From positions 124,001-188,000 of the forward strand of contig NZ_JAKLLH010000006.1 of the NCBI RefSeq assembly GCF_023150235.1: 64,000 nucleotides of DNA, read 5' to 3'. Of this stretch, positions 55,934-62,222 are shown piece by piece (within the stretch, counting starts at the first letter, position 1; every line of letters begins with the position of its first letter). The notes under the pieces were generated by a model. That model was not told where the DNA came from, did not search any database, and saw only the letters and a list, made by a program, of their open reading frames with translations. The position numbers were made by a program, and so were the translations under genes. The DNA is from Azonexus sp. Lineage in GTDB: Bacteria > Pseudomonadota > Gammaproteobacteria > Burkholderiales > Rhodocyclaceae.

Positions 55934-56104
55934 CCGGCCCGGCCACCACGGCGGAAAAAGCGACGGTCAGCCCCACGCCAGCCGTCGCTTGACTATTTTT
56001 TAAGCGGCTTTTGCGGTAGAATCCGCGCCTTGCCCGCACCACCCTCCGCACGCCCCCCGACAGCTTCGCCGCTGTCTTTTCTTTTTTCATCTCTCTGCTT
56101 TTAC

Positions 56105-57136
56105 ATGGAATTTGCCGGTTTTCAGCTCCGCAACAATCTCTTTGTCGCTCCGATGGCCGGGGTGACCGACCGTCCTTTCCGGCAACTCTGCAAGAAACTC
56201 GGCGCGGGCCTCGCCGTGTCCGAAATGGTGACCTCGAACTCGCTGCTTTACGGCAGCGCCAAAACCCTGCGCCGCGCCAATCACGACGGCGAAGTCGAGC
56301 CGATTTCGGTGCAGATCGCCGGCGCCGATCCGAAGATGATGGCCGAAGCGGCCAAGCACAACGTCGATAACGGCGCCCAGATCATCGACATCAACATGGG
56401 TTGCCCGGCCAAGAAGGTCTGCAACGTGATGGCCGGCTCGGCGCTGATGCAGAACGAGCTGCTGGTCGGCGAAATTCTCGATGCCGTGGTCGCCGCCGTC
56501 CCGGATACCCCGGTGACGCTGAAATTCCGTACCGGCTGGAACCTGGCCAACCGCAACGCGCCGAACATCGCCCGCATCGCCGAGAACGCCGGCATCCGCG
56601 CCGTCGCCATCCACGGCCGGACGCGCTGCCAGCAATACACCGGCGACGCCGAGTACGAGACCATTGCCTACGTCAAGACGCTGGTCAACATCCCGGTGAT
56701 CGCCAACGGCGACATCACCACGCCCGAGAAGGCCAGGCTGGTGCTGGAAAAAACCGGCGCCGACGGCCTGATGATCGGCCGCGCCGCGCAAGGCCGGCCG
56801 TGGCTGTTCCGCGAGATCGAGCATTACCTGAAGACCGGCGAGAAGTTGCCGCCGGCACCGGTGGCTGAAATCCACGCCATCCTGCTCGCTCACCTCGAAG
56901 ACCTCTACGCCTTTTACGGGCTGGAGACCGGGGTGAAGGTCGCGCGCAAGCACATCAGCTGGTATACCAAGGGCCTGATCGGCTCGGCAGCCTTCCGCAA
57001 AATCATGAACACACTACCGACGGTCGAGTTGCAACGCGGCGCGGTCGACGACTTCTTCCTGCGTTATGCTGAAGCGCACGAGCACCTGCAGTACGAAGAA
57101 CACAAACAAAATCCAGAGAAGGAGTTGGCAGCATGA
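56105..57136 (+). CDS. dusB: tRNA-dihydrouridine synthase B
   Basis: 343 residues: LFVAPMAGVTDRPFRQLC, INMGCPAKKVCNVMAGSALM with the catalytic Cys, KFRTGW, AIHGRTRCQQYTG, VIANGDITTPEKA and GLMIGRAAQGRPWLF. It reduces specific uridines in tRNA D-loops using FMN. ATG 56105 fits family starts; the frame open upstream to 56030 is Pro/Ser-rich leader. A TAGAAT -10-like box is at 56017. The stop overlaps fis by 4 bp, the classic dusB-fis operon. Confidence 0.96.
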   Translation: MEFAGFQLRNNLFVAPMAGVTDRPFRQLCKKLGAGLAVSEMVTSNSLLYGSAKTLRRANHDGEVEPISVQIAGADPKMMAEAAKHNVDNGAQIIDINMGCPAKKVCNVMAGSALMQNELLVGEILDAVVAAVPDTPVTLKFRTGWNLANRNAPNIARIAENAGIRAVAIHGRTRCQQYTGDAEYETIAYVKTLVNIPVIANGDITTPEKARLVLEKTGADGLMIGRAAQGRPWLFREIEHYLKTGEKLPPAPVAEIHAILLAHLEDLYAFYGLETGVKVARKHISWYTKGLIGSAAFRKIMNTLPTVELQRGAVDDFFLRYAEAHEHLQYEEHKQNPEKELAA

Positions 57137-57366
57137 GCCAACAGGACATTTCCGCCTGCGTCCAGGGGGCGCTGGAACAGTATTTTCGCGATCTGGACGG
57201 TGAAAAGCCGTGCGCGATCTATGAAATGGTGCTCAAGAGCATCGAACGCCCGATGCTCGAAATCGTGCTCGAAAAAGCCGGCAACAACCAGACGCTGGCC
57301 GCCGAGATGCTCGGCATCAACCGCAACACCCTGCGCAAGAAGCTGACCGAACATCAACTGCTTTGA
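57133..57366 (+). CDS. fis: DNA-binding protein Fis
   Basis: 77 residues, the short betaproteobacterial Fis. N-terminal LEQYFRDLDGEKPCAIYEMVLKSIERPML; C-terminal helix-turn-helix GNNQTLAAEMLGINRNTLRKKL. A nucleoid protein that bends DNA and activates rRNA and growth genes. Translationally coupled to dusB. Confidence 0.96.
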   Translation: MSQQDISACVQGALEQYFRDLDGEKPCAIYEMVLKSIERPMLEIVLEKAGNNQTLAAEMLGINRNTLRKKLTEHQLL

Positions 57367-57471: not shown

Positions 57472-59088
57472 ATGTCCATCAAACAAGCGCTGATTTCCGT
57501 CTCCGACAAGACGGGTGTTCTCGAATTCGCCCAAGGCCTCGCCGCTCAAGGCGTCAAGCTGCTGTCCACCGGCGGCACCGCCAAAATGCTGCGCGACGCC
57601 GGGTTGACCGTGACCGAGATCGGCGACTACACCGGTTTCCCGGAAATGCTCGACGGCCGCGTCAAGACCCTGCACCCGAAGGTGCACGGCGGCATCCTGG
57701 CCCGCCGCGACCTGGCCGAGCACATGGCGACCATCGAACAGCACGGCATTCCGATGATCGACCTGGTCTGCGTGAACCTCTACCCGTTCGCCGCCACCAT
57801 CGCCAAGGCCGGCGTCACGCTCGAAGACGCGATTGAAAACATCGACATCGGCGGTCCGGCGATGGTCCGTTCCTCGGCCAAGAACTACAACGGCGTCGCC
57901 ATCGTCACCGACCCGGCCGACTACCAGCCGCTGCTCGACGAGATGAAAGCCAACGGCGGCGCACTGGCCCTGGCGACCCGCTTCGGCCTGGCCAAGAAGG
58001 CCTTCACCCACACCGCCCGTTACGACAGCATGATCGCCAACTGGCTGACCGGCCTCGACGAAGGCGCCGAAGCCAAGCCGGCGGAAGCCGCCCCGACCCC
58101 GTCGGTGTTCCCGGCCAAGCTGCAACTGGCCTTCGACCGCAGCGAAATCCTGCGCTACGGCGAAAACTCACACCAGCAAGCCGCCTTCTACCGCGACACC
58201 GTTGCCCTGCCGGGCAGCATCGCCGCCTACACCCAGCTGCAGGGCAAGGAACTGTCCTACAACAACATCGCCGACTCCGATGCGGCCTGGGAATGCGTCA
58301 AGAGCTTCGACGCGAGTGTTGGCCAACTCGCCTGCGTCATCGTCAAGCACGCCAACCCGTGCGGCGTCGCCATCGACGCCAAGCTGCTCGGCGCCTACGA
58401 AAAGGCCTTCCAGACCGACTCCACCTCCGCTTTCGGCGGCATCATCGCCTTCAACGGCGAAGTCGGCATCGACGTCGTCGAGGCAATGAACGCCCGCAAG
58501 CACTTCGTCGAAGTGCTGATCGCCCCCTCCTTCACCGCCGAAGCCCGGACCGCGCTCGCCGCCAAGGCCAACCTGCGCGTGCTGGTCGTACCACTGGGTG
58601 AAAACAAGGGCCGCAATCTCAACAAGCTGGAATTGAAGCGCGTCGGCGGCGGCCTGCTGGTGCAGACGGCCGACGACTTCACCGCGCAAGCCAGCGGCCT
58701 GAAGGTGGTGACCAAGGTGCAGCCGACCGCCCGGCAGATCGAAGACCTGCTCTTCGCCGAGCGCGTCGCCAAGTTCGTCAAGTCCAACGCCATCGTCTTC
58801 TGCGGCGGCGGCATGACGCTCGGTGTCGGTGCCGGCCAGATGAGCCGCGTCGATTCGACCAAGATCGCCTGCATCAAGGCGCAGAACGCCGGCCTCGGCC
58901 TCAAGGGCTCGGTGGTCGCCTCCGACGCCTTCTTCCCGTTCCGCGACGGCGTCGATGTGCTGGCCGAAGCCGGTGCCGTTGCCGTCATTCAGCCAGGTGG
59001 CTCGATGCGCGACGAAGAAGTGATCGCAGCAGCGGATGAACACGGGATTGCGATGGTTTTCACGGGTGCGCGTCACTTCCGTCACTAA
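57472..59088 (+). CDS. purH: Bifunctional AICAR formyltransferase / IMP cyclohydrolase
   Basis: 538 residues. The N-terminal cyclohydrolase (about 1-195) shows [38 protein letters not shown] and [17 protein letters not shown]. The C-terminal formyltransferase (about 200-538) shows [55 protein letters not shown] and [18 protein letters not shown]. Together they perform the last two steps to IMP. No conventional ribosome site is visible, because the GATCCT repeats abut the ATG. Confidence 0.97.
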
Positions 59089-59108: not shown

Positions 59109-60275
59109 ATGATCGATAGTCTGACTATTCGAAATTTTCGATTATTTGACGAGTTGGAAATCCCTAAGCTTGGGCAAGTGAACCTTATTGTCGGCAAAAA
59201 CAATAGTGGCAAAAGCTCCCTCTTAGAGGCCCTTAGCATCTTTGCCAGCCAAGGCAATCCTGCAACACTTAGTACACTACTTGGGCAGCACGATGAGAAC
59301 CTGCGTTTTGACAATCCGTTAGCCAATTCCGACATTGGTGCCTTGGAGTCCTCTTTCCGCCACTTTTTCCCCAAGCGAACATTCCCTGAGCGCGACGGCG
59401 CCCCCATTTACATTGGCGACAAGAACAAAGACTACTTTGTTCAGATTGAACACCGCCTTTTTCAAGAAGCATTTGAAGAAATACAAGACGAAGATGGTGA
59501 CATTGTCCGACGGTTAAAACGAATACCAGTTGAAAAAGACAGTCCAGATTTGTTTTCAGATCAGATTTCTCCAAACCAAGCGCTTCATATCTCCACTAAA
59601 CATCGCTCGTTTTGGCTTGATATTGATGACAGTTCACATATCCGTCGACGTAGTCGATTCGGCGGCGGGGAGCCTGGTGCCATACCTTACGTTTATGTTC
59701 CAACTGATTTTGTCACTCCTGAGCAACTCGCTGGAATGTGGGACAAGGCCGCGCTCACAGAAGCAGAAAACTATCTGCTACAGGCGCTACAGATAATTGA
59801 AGAGGACGTCACGGGCCTTGCTTTTGTATCAAAGGACGAAGGAGCGCTCTCAAGAGAAGCAAAACGCGTTGCTATCGTAAAGCTAAAAGACGAACCGTCG
59901 CCCATTCCATTAGCCGGCATGGGTGACGGAATGACTCGCGTATTACAAATTGTACTGTCGCTTTTCTCTGCCAAAGGCGGGATTCTCTTATTAGATGAGT
60001 TTGAAAACGGCCTGCATTACTCTGTACAAAAACAGGCGTGGGATCTAGTTCTCTTCCTTGCAAAGGAATTAAGTGTCCAGGTTTTCGCCACAACTCACAG
60101 CAGGGATTGCATAGAGGCGTTCTCTGCTGCTTCGATAGAAGACACCAAGATCGATGGCATGCTTTTCAGATTTGGGAAAAGCGTCGCGGCAAATGACAGA
60201 GGCCGCGTTTTTGCTACTGTCTTTACTGAGGAACGCTTAGGTCGCCTAACCGAAGCGAACATTGAGGTTCGGTAA
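59109..60275 (+). CDS. OLD/ABC-type ATPase, probable defence protein
   Basis: 388 residues. Start MIDSLTIRNFRLFDELEIPKL is typical of AAA15/AAA21 ATPases. Walker A GKNNSGKS (29-36), a signature-like LAGMGDGMTRVLQI (about 265), Walker B GILLLDEFENGLHYS (about 290-304) and an H-loop-like ATTHSRD (about 330). No nuclease domain is attached. It overlaps by 1 bp (TAATG) a second gene with TOPRIM residues, so ATPase and nuclease are split. This is the general plan of OLD-like and PARIS-like phage defence pairs. AT-rich compared with purH and purD. AAAGGG ribosome site 7-12 bp before ATG. Confidence 0.88.
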   Translation: MIDSLTIRNFRLFDELEIPKLGQVNLIVGKNNSGKSSLLEALSIFASQGNPATLSTLLGQHDENLRFDNPLANSDIGALESSFRHFFPKRTFPERDGAPIYIGDKNKDYFVQIEHRLFQEAFEEIQDEDGDIVRRLKRIPVEKDSPDLFSDQISPNQALHISTKHRSFWLDIDDSSHIRRRSRFGGGEPGAIPYVYVPTDFVTPEQLAGMWDKAALTEAENYLLQALQIIEEDVTGLAFVSKDEGALSREAKRVAIVKLKDEPSPIPLAGMGDGMTRVLQIVLSLFSAKGGILLLDEFENGLHYSVQKQAWDLVLFLAKELSVQVFATTHSRDCIEAFSAASIEDTKIDGMLFRFGKSVAANDRGRVFATVFTEERLGRLTEANIEVR

Positions 60276-60943
60276 TGACCCAAAAAACGCTGCTTGTAGA
60301 AGGCGAGGCTGACCAAATTTTCTTTGAGGCGCTATTGCGTACTATTGGTTACAAAAAACAAGAAATAACCGTAGGCCCCCCTAGGGAATATGGTGCGTCA
60401 GGCAACGGAAAGGGAAACGCAATTTTCATATTTGAAGATTTGCTGGATAGCTTAAACGATGGAAGAGTGACTAGACTTGGCTTGGTCGTGGATGCCGACT
60501 CCAAGAGTTCAGGTGGACTGGGCTTCCTTGCAACTTACCAGCGTATAGAAAAACTTCTTTCCCCTAGAGGATACGACGTCCAAACCCCTCCCTCAAATGT
60601 TGGTTTCGATGGTTTTATTTTTGATAATAGAAACGGATTGCCAAAAATTGGCATCTGGATAATGCCAACAAATAAGGCTGACGGCTATATAGAGGATTGG
60701 TGCCTTGCATCTGCGGCAGCGGCAGAAAATCAACTTGTCGCACAGGCGAGACAAGCGGTTAACAGTATCAACAACAAAAAATTTCCTGAGCACTTTTTTT
60801 CAAAGGCATGCACAAGTACATGGCTTGCTTGGCAGCGAACTCCAGGAGGAGGTTTGGGTAGCCTTATTGGAAACAAATTGTTAAATGAGAACAGTGAGTC
60901 TTACAAAGGTCTGAGCAATTGGCTGAGAAAGGTTTTTTATTAA
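60275..60943 (+). CDS. TOPRIM-like (DUF3226-type) protein partnered with the ATPase
   Basis: 222 residues. TOPRIM acidic residues: LLVEGEADQIFFEALL with Glu9 and Glu11, and LGLVVDADSKSSGG with Asp73 and Asp75. The rest (FDGFIFDNRNGLPKIGIWIMP, DGYIEDWCLASA) fits the DUF3226 group, which I know as TOPRIM-related. Probably a metal-dependent nuclease or its regulator, activated by the upstream ATPase. AT-rich. Its stop is 1 bp before the purD ATG. I cannot match the pair to a named system with certainty. Confidence 0.8.
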   Translation: MTQKTLLVEGEADQIFFEALLRTIGYKKQEITVGPPREYGASGNGKGNAIFIFEDLLDSLNDGRVTRLGLVVDADSKSSGGLGFLATYQRIEKLLSPRGYDVQTPPSNVGFDGFIFDNRNGLPKIGIWIMPTNKADGYIEDWCLASAAAAENQLVAQARQAVNSINNKKFPEHFFSKACTSTWLAWQRTPGGGLGSLIGNKLLNENSESYKGLSNWLRKVFY

Positions 60944-60944
60944 A

Positions 60945-62222
60945 ATGAAACTACTGGTAATCGGTTCCGGCGGCCGCGAGCACGCCATGGCCTGGAAGCT
61001 GGCCCAAACCCCCGGTCTGCAGAAGGTGTACGTCGCCCCGGGTAACGCCGGCACGGCGCGCGAGCACGAGCTGGAAAACATCGACATCACCGATCCAGCA
61101 GCTCTGGCCGATTTCGTCGAGCAGAACAAGATTCACCTCACCCTGGTCGGCCCGGAAGCCCCGCTGGCGGCCGGTGTGGTTGACGTGTTCCGCGCCCGTG
61201 GCCTGAAGATTTTTGGCCCGACCAAGGCTGCCGCACAGCTTGAATCCTCGAAGGATTTCGCCAAGCGCTTCATGGCCCGCCACAACATTCCGACGGCCGG
61301 TTTCGAGACTTTTTCCGAGTCGACCGCGGCGCACGCTTACATCGACAAGAAGGGCGCTCCCATCGTGATCAAGGCCGACGGCCTGGCCGCCGGCAAGGGC
61401 GTCGTCGTGGCGATGAGTCTTGAAGAGGCTCACGCCGCCATCGACGACATGCTCTCCGGCAACAAGCTCGGCGATGCCGGCGCCCGCGTCGTGATCGAGG
61501 ATTTCCTCGACGGCGAGGAGGCGAGCTTCATCGTCATGGTCGACGGCAAGAACGTGCTGCCGCTGGCTTCCAGCCAGGATCACAAGCGTATCTTCGACGG
61601 CGACCAGGGGCCGAACACCGGCGGCATGGGCGCTTATTCCCCGGCCCCGTGCGTAACGCCGGAAGTGCACGCCAAGGCGATGCGCGAAATCATCCTGCCG
61701 ACGGTGCGGGGCATGGCTGCCGACGGCATTCCCTTCACCGGCTTCCTCTACGCTGGCCTGATGATCGGCAAGGACGGTTCGGTCAAGACGCTGGAATTCA
61801 ACTGCCGCATGGGCGACCCGGAAACGCAGCCGATCCTGATGCGGATGAAATCCGATTTTGCCCATCTGCTCGAACACGGCATTGCCGGCACGCTCGACCA
61901 GGTCGAGGCTGAGTGGGACCGTCGCATTGCCCTCGGGGTGGTGCTCGCCGCCGCACACTACCCGGACACGCCGAAGAAAGGCGATGTCATCGGTGGCCTG
62001 CCCAAAGGCAATCGTTTCGGCGAGGACTGCCACGTCTTCCATGCCGGCACGGTGGAAAGGGACGGCCAGGTACTGACCAATGGCGGGCGGGTACTGTGCG
62101 TGACCGCACTCGGCGAAAACATCAAACTGGCCCAGAAAGCAGCTTACGAGGCTGCCGCGCAGATCGCCTGGGAAGGGATGCAATATCGCAAGGATATCGG
62201 GCATCGGGCCGTCAGCCGATGA
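60945..62222 (+). CDS. purD: Phosphoribosylamine-glycine ligase (GARS)
   Basis: 425 residues: MKLLVIGSGGREHAMAWKL, VGPEAPLAAGVVD, SKDFAKRFMARHNIPTA, VIKADGLAAGKGVVVA, the ATP-grasp FLDGEEASFI, NTGGMGAYSPAP and EFNCRMGDPETQP. It joins glycine to phosphoribosylamine. The start follows the TOPRIM gene by 1 bp; the nearest ribosome-like word GAAAGG lies 14-19 bp upstream, inside that gene, so translation probably depends on coupling. Confidence 0.97.
   Translation: MKLLVIGSGGREHAMAWKLAQTPGLQKVYVAPGNAGTAREHELENIDITDPAALADFVEQNKIHLTLVGPEAPLAAGVVDVFRARGLKIFGPTKAAAQLESSKDFAKRFMARHNIPTAGFETFSESTAAHAYIDKKGAPIVIKADGLAAGKGVVVAMSLEEAHAAIDDMLSGNKLGDAGARVVIEDFLDGEEASFIVMVDGKNVLPLASSQDHKRIFDGDQGPNTGGMGAYSPAPCVTPEVHAKAMREIILPTVRGMAADGIPFTGFLYAGLMIGKDGSVKTLEFNCRMGDPETQPILMRMKSDFAHLLEHGIAGTLDQVEAEWDRRIALGVVLAAAHYPDTPKKGDVIGGLPKGNRFGEDCHVFHAGTVERDGQVLTNGGRVLCVTALGENIKLAQKAAYEAAAQIAWEGMQYRKDIGHRAVSR

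Follow-up and report, generated by a model that had tools for sequence, protein, structure and literature searches.

A candidate phage-defence gene pair of the PDC-M38 type inserted between purH and purD in Azonexus sp.

The window analysed in this study, a stretch of 64,000 nucleotides from Azonexus sp. (assembly GCF_023150235.1, contig NZ_JAKLLH010000006.1), contains a string of genes that are all located on the plus strand in the order dusB-like, fis-like, purH, ORF A, ORF B and purD (Table 1). Gene calls throughout are longest-ORF calls. A sequence-only reading of this DNA had described ORF A and ORF B as two overlapping, AT-rich genes that interrupt a purine operon, and each part of this description was confirmed. 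ORF A starts after a gap of 20 nt behind the purH stop codon, its own stop codon has one base in common with the start codon of ORF B (TAATG), and the ATG of purD is found 1 nt past the stop codon of ORF B. The composition of the pair is foreign to its surroundings, with a GC content of about 0.45-0.48 across both ORFs versus about 0.64 in the flanks and a GC3 of 0.452 (ORF A) and 0.399 (ORF B) versus 0.865 in purH and 0.798 in purD. In a pattern scan no terminator-like site was detected at the purH-ORF A or the ORF B-purD junction, and a promoter-like match (9 of 12) was present at the latter (60919-60946); the pattern counts of the region resembled those of shuffled sequences (terminators 7 versus 7.8, promoters 3 versus 1.6). 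Because the gap behind purH is too short for a promoter, the pair probably shares a transcript with purH and is translationally coupled to purD. A promoter for the pair within purH is possible.

Table 1. Position of the genes and motifs at the purH-purD locus (numbering of the window).
Feature	Position	Strand	Basis
dusB-like gene, 5' end of host gene string	56030..57136	+	ORF; named by eye
fis-like gene, overlapping the dusB-like end	57133..57366	+	ORF; named by eye
purH, 5' flank of insertion	57472..59088	+	ORF; homologues in 146/150 family genomes
ORF A, OLD-type ABC ATPase, 388 aa, presumed sensor/holder	59109..60275	+	AAA_15, PDC-M38A, PDB profile
Walker A GKNNSGKS, residues 29-36	59193..59216	+	Gly29, Asn31, Gly34, Lys35 in 60/60
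Walker B LLLDEF, with Asp296 and Glu297	59985..60002	+	60/60
Glu-Val-Arg tripeptide, C-terminal end of ORF A	60264..60272	+	Tail comparison, 83 proteins
ORF B, DUF3226 TOPRIM-like protein, 222 aa, presumed nuclease effector	60275..60943	+	DUF3226, PDC-M38B, PDB profile
TOPRIM motif 1 LLVEGEAD (Glu9, Gly10, Asp13)	60290..60313	+	Glu9 77/77; Gly10, Asp13 76/77
TOPRIM motif 2 DAD (Asp73, Asp75)	60491..60499	+	Asp73 77/77; Asp75 76/77
C-terminal motif of ORF B, Lys177-Pro190	60803..60844	+	Lys177, Gln187, Pro190 77/77; beyond AriB-aligned stretch
purD, 3' flank	60945..62222	+	ORF; 99% identity to genus-mate G438 over the first 100 nt

ORF A matched Pfam AAA_15 (2.5e-28) and, over its full length, the PDC-M38A model of PADLOC-DB 2.0 (2.1e-134, 447 bits, residues 1-388 on profile positions 1-383 of 383). 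The AbiLi model was also matched from residue 1 to 388 (4e-51). Matches to the AriA models (2.9e-28 and 5.9e-25) were far weaker than these two, and the GajA model gave 1.9e-15. Sixty A proteins, one from the window and the others from 59 of 82 loci, were aligned, and their profile retrieved OLD (6p74, 3.4e-11) and AriA (5.2e-4) from the PDB, together with PtuA, Rad50, RecF, GajA and the Retron-Eco8 OLD nuclease. The Walker A and Walker B motifs that had been noted before are indeed present and intact, and Lys35, Asp296 and Glu297 are invariant in all 60 aligned ATPases.

The supposition that the second gene encodes a small TOPRIM-like protein of the DUF3226 family was upheld as well. ORF B matched Pfam DUF3226 (1.1e-42), with in addition a sub-threshold match to an OLD-like TOPRIM, and the PDC-M38B model (3.7e-66, 221 bits, residues 1-221 on profile positions 1-218 of 219). 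In an alignment of 77 B proteins (one from the window and the others from 76 of 85 loci) the Glu motif and the DxD motif of the TOPRIM superfamily are kept, and Trp128 and Gly137 (77/77) and Glu140 (76/77) are conserved besides. Comparison of the profile of these 77 proteins with 177,635 PDB sequences yielded AriB of PARIS as the best match (8ux9, 7.1e-4; 8v46, 8e-4), whereas the next match other than AriB reached only 0.41. The alignment with AriB is weak and about 60 residues long; it spans TOPRIM motif 1 (LLVEGxxD), and Glu9 of ORF B falls within this aligned motif. AriB is a TOPRIM tRNase that is freed by AriA on a phage trigger, and its E26A form is without cleavage (PMC12409363, available in part). 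When B was compared with small sets by profile-profile alignment, the scores were marginal (AriB-type E 0.0027, probability 11%; RloB 0.0045, 8%; GajA 0.16, 0.4%). No match of ORF B to the AriB or the AbiLii model of PADLOC was obtained up to an E value of 1. Taken together, ORF B is predicted to have a TOPRIM fold.

Since both proteins match full-length models, the pair is, as judged by its sequence, a member of the catalogued PADLOC candidate PDC-M38. The idea that it could be an undescribed system therefore did not hold, the more so because OLD-ATPase/TOPRIM pairs are known in BREX (PMC12839542, available in part). PDC-M38 is a computational candidate, for which neither a mechanism nor a test was found in the literature searched; neither the name PDC-M38 nor DUF3226 was found in this literature (preprints and most subscription papers lay outside its scope). 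The plan of the pair, an OLD-type ABC ATPase gene followed by a gene for a TOPRIM protein, recalls PARIS, as had been proposed, with AriB as the PDB sequence closest to the B profile. In contrast to PARIS, ORF B is a DUF3226 protein without a match to the AriB (DUF4435) model and with a C-terminal motif of its own. The two-gene plan and the full-length AbiLi match of ORF A are shared with AbiL/RloAB, but ORF B lacks the AbiLii match that two scanned RloB proteins do show (6e-30 and 2.9e-28). Gabija and the OLD nucleases have the OLD-type ATPase and the TOPRIM chemistry in common with the pair; however, GajA is one chain followed by the UvrD-like helicase GajB, whereas here two ORFs are followed by purD. 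On the strength of these partner comparisons, the pair appears PARIS-like in plan and yet distinct from PARIS, AbiL and Gabija.

DUF3226 was detected at an E value of 1e-3 in 13 of 300 sampled genomes of the order, and a homologue of ORF B at 1e-5 in 6 of 395 genomes of the family. A scan of GTDB contigs with a single sequence gave no relatives, whereas a profile scan gave at least 516, of which the best 80 were kept. The best 80 of these at least 516 relatives range from Pseudomonadota to Cyanobacteriota, Bacteroidota, Chloroflexota and ANME/Methanosarcinales archaea. Viral contigs added five further loci, which brought the number to 85, and a B homologue was found in none of 50,697 phage records. 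The tree was made from the window and 78 loci. The pairing of A and B, which had been put forward as something to be counted, is nearly constant: in 82 of the 85 loci (a few are cut by the contig start) B is immediately preceded by an A homologue, the exceptions being L115 and L142, which both start at the end of a contig, and L124. The A/B junction is an overlap of 1 or 4 nt in 61 of 83 cases. The genome of the window pair carries a second, divergent DUF3226 gene (G000:C22:68619-69383; L016; L077:8071-10416), a 271-aa ORF with directly upstream an ATPase ORF that ends in DLR and downstream a gene that is CoA-transferase-like by eye.

Plasmids also carry the pair. Ten of 72,556 plasmid records were positive, among them mobilizable plasmids of 6.4 and 14 kb, and in two of the four plasmids that were read the pair is adjoined by toxin-antitoxin genes (RelE/NadS or BrnT/BrnA). 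Such plasmid residence bears on the question whether A and B might jointly attack invading phage or plasmid DNA, as OLD and Gabija do, without harm to their own cell. Nucleases of the OLD family cleave DNA (PMC10568477, available in part) and the A profile matches OLD and GajA, which agrees with such a role. However, it is improbable given that copies of the pair reside on plasmids themselves, that A and B are separate proteins and that, among TOPRIM proteins, B is matched best by the tRNase AriB (PMC12409363, available in part) rather than by GajA.

Comparison of the C-terminal ends of 83 A proteins (the window and 82 loci) revealed that 82 of them end in Arg. The last three residues are EVR in 63, EIR in 14 and DVR in 2 proteins, and ELR, EPR, VRR and NNY occur once each, so that Glu-x-Arg ends 79 and EVR or EIR ends 77 of the 83; all four plasmid copies that were read end in EVR. 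The sole A protein without the terminal Arg (L128) has an unusual A/B overlap of 52 nt. The terminal Arg is encoded by several codons and in several overlap frames. This implies that the constraint acts on the protein. A terminal Arg was seen in none of 19 RloA tails (two of which are identical) and in none of four ORFs upstream of DUF4435/AriB-type genes (two of the four AriB-type proteins behind these AriA controls were confirmed with PADLOC), which sets ORF A apart from the RloA and AriA-type ORFs compared. A Glu-x-Arg ending of the ATPase is possibly a feature that has not been described before; no report on a C-terminal tail in OLD ATPases was found in the literature searched. The tail of ORF A is proposed to dock into ORF B.

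Within the genus, purD was matched in 71 of 76 genomes, and 30 purD loci, including that of the window, were read. Neither A nor B is present in the stretch that was read upstream of purD in any of the other 29, in 24 of which the purH-purD gap measures 15-136 nt. ORF A and ORF B are thus an insertion between purH and purD. Of 150 genomes of the family, 147 gave a match for purD and 146 for purH, and 23 family loci with a purH-purD gap of about 300 nt or more were picked by eye and read. Two of these gaps hold the pair (G322 and G435); as judged by eye, 15 hold a PagP-like gene (L024, L033, L038, L040-L042, L044, L061, L063-L067, L069 and L070), four an ORF6N-like gene (L026, L031, L062 and L068) and two something else. 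The purH-purD slot is a small variable locus within the purine operon of this family.

The three closest copies of the pair are all located at purH-purD; they belong to three genera and form one clade (support 100) with 67-73% identity in A and 47-50% in B. B homologues occur in three further family genomes; these are 31-33% identical, and the one in G317 is far from the purD of that genome. A constant purH-purD site without defence neighbours had been named beforehand as an argument against defence; it is what the three closest copies show, but it does not apply to the wider family (see below). The GC3 of the three pairs (0.40-0.45, 0.49-0.50 and 0.61-0.70) is AT-rich for their hosts, whose purH and purD have a GC3 of 0.80-0.92. 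Because this low GC3 is kept in all three copies and the pair is absent from the genus mates, repeated arrival at purH-purD is favoured over a single old insertion followed by many losses. Transfer of the pair together with the purH and purD flanks of a donor was not favoured: in steps of 100 nt, three genus mates mostly matched the flanks more closely than the other two carriers did, and no clear donor tract was seen. At the purH end beside the insertion the identity is 75-80% to the genus mates versus 80% to the carriers, and a short donor tract is possible there. In a Thiomargarita contig (L085:6877-8148) the pair and purD are arranged tail to tail at a distance of 414 nt, unlike the nesting between purH and purD.

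Nesting in conserved operons is also observed among more distant relatives. Neighbours identified with HMMs on both sides gave the orders CinA-pair-RecA (L086) and HisZ-type-pair-PurA (L089). The pair is found between a GATase (TrpG by eye) and a glycosyltransferase of family 3 (TrpD by eye) in L091, between an amidohydrolase (FhcA by eye) and FTR in L152, and, with one ORF intervening after HisG, between HisG and HisD in L106 (HMM). DapD follows the pair in L087 and L138 (HMM), and in L138 an aminotransferase (dapC?, by eye) precedes it. On the upstream side only, GuaA, PyrD, ProC, LeuS, AspS and HisG were matched by HMM, with MmdA-like and MoeA-like proteins below the cut-off. Recognised by eye only were recC-x-pair-recB (L107) and hisG and hisD in L109, L116 and L118; an EmrA-like gene (below the cut-off) and an MFS gene surround the pair of L122. 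Altogether the pair is inside a conserved operon in 13 of 80 genome loci, which represent nine sites; sites rather than loci were taken as the unit, because several loci are related copies. The operon genes are direct neighbours on both sides in eight loci at seven sites (L079, L080, L086, L089, L091, L109, L138 and L152), while extra sequence or an extra ORF separates them from the pair in L106, L107, L116, L118 and L122. The distance between hisG and hisD in E. coli K-12 is 5 nt and that between pncC and recA 79 nt; for the other interrupted operons the usual gene order is general knowledge. The spot before dapD is used by pairs of two separate, distant clades (L087 versus L127 and L138, the dapD of L127 being named without HMM), so the dapD operon was probably entered at least twice.

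The geometry by itself did not discriminate: 28 of 69 readable pairs versus 4 of 17 RloAB controls had, at each side, a gene on the same strand no more than 250 nt away, which is no clear difference. The nesting claim consequently rests on the named conserved operons. Two-sided housekeeping nesting was recognised in none of the four RloAB controls that have such neighbours at each side and in none of 10 Gabija loci. These control sets are small (19 RloAB loci, of which 17 were readable on both sides and the neighbours of 16 were inspected; the Gabija loci had flanks of 1.5 kb). One RloAB (AbiL-type) pair, L234, is located after gatB-like and purB-like genes on the same strand (by eye), which could be a parallel in another ATPase-TOPRIM family. 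Selection for nesting in operons is at present a lead. The literature searched, with the scope given above, yielded no report of a defence system within a housekeeping operon, and nothing relevant by title in which purH and purD were combined with defence.

Given these sites, the pair could be thought to serve host physiology in purine or amino-acid metabolism without any role in defence, as in several lineages the neighbours of relatives are histidine genes or purine genes (purH-purD, guaA, purA). This is very improbable, since a B homologue is present so sporadically in the family (the 6 of 395 genomes mentioned above), the GC content of the pair is foreign and relatives are also found beside many unrelated genes, in BREX and on plasmids.

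The proximity to defence genes that had been looked for was encountered in BREX loci. In L096 PglZ and BrxL are located downstream of the pair, and ten loci are nested in BREX as judged by eye (L088, L093, L095, L096, L103, L104, L110, L112, L114 and L133). From the 387 neighbour proteins 24 of more than 900 aa were dropped and 142 of the rest, from 31 loci, were scanned; up to 6 of these 142 matched PglZ models. In the BREX-like locus L095:5790-12706 a PDC-S02-type ORF and a PDC-M25A-type ATPase surround the DUF3226 pair, so that defence candidates are stacked. In a 2026 survey of BREX, OLD-ABC/TOPRIM pairs nested in BREX are described as prominent backup effectors that are similar to PARIS (PMC12839542, available in part). 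The relatives of the pair that stand between BREX genes resemble these effectors; the window copy, in contrast, is outside BREX, and DUF3226 is not named in the available part of that survey. No defence genes were found beside the window pair and no PglZ match in its genome. In addition, an archaeal OLD-family ATPase is reported to be apparently not antiviral (PMC12796447, available in part), so OLD homology alone is no proof of defence. No phage experiment on the pair or its family was found in the literature searched.

Considering the above, the pair is probably a horizontally acquired two-gene module for phage defence by abortive infection that resembles PARIS, in which A restrains the TOPRIM nuclease B until a phage trigger appears. 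By analogy, ORF A would be both scaffold and sensor and would keep ORF B, a putative metal-dependent TOPRIM nuclease, silent as long as it is restrained. A phage product or a phage-caused change would act on the ATPase, upon which ORF B would be released or switched on and would cut a nucleic acid needed for growth. If AriB is a guide, tRNA or another RNA would be a likelier substrate than DNA. The infected cell would then stop growing. The Glu-x-Arg tail may serve as the latch in this restraint.

The same two proteins could also constitute a toxin-antitoxin or locus-stabilising module, with B as toxin and A as antitoxin, that benefits by its own persistence through coupling to essential genes, phage defence being secondary or absent. 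This is in line with the carriage of the pair by small mobilizable plasmids, the nesting of relatives within essential operons and the ORF B stop codon 1 nt before the purD ATG. It seems rather unlikely nevertheless, as the BREX nesting and the PADLOC candidacy favour defence and an ABC ATPase of 388 aa would be an expensive choice of antitoxin. One module may well combine toxin-antitoxin logic with abortive infection. A more specific form of the abortive-infection reading can be offered only tentatively: the module may be a mobile one that is specialised in clean nesting in essential operons, ending at the start codon of the downstream essential gene, by which it would borrow the expression of the operon, link its own integrity to an essential function and so be protected from loss, while the ATPase would hold its TOPRIM effector by the C-terminal Glu-x-Arg latch that is absent from the RloA-type and AriA-type tails checked.

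With these results the candidate PDC-M38 gains an anatomy that can be tested: its TOPRIM-like partner belongs to neither the AriB nor the RloB family, and the conserved tripeptide at the end of the ATPase lends itself to an assembly experiment. The locus in Azonexus sp. is a naturally occurring, clean insertion, and close relatives show the corresponding site empty. Two features are added here to the catalogued candidate, namely the Glu-x-Arg signature at the C-terminus of the ATPase and the repeated occurrence of the pair within essential operons. If this repeated nesting is real and selected, defence genes would persist outside defence islands, where they would be missed by island-based searches.
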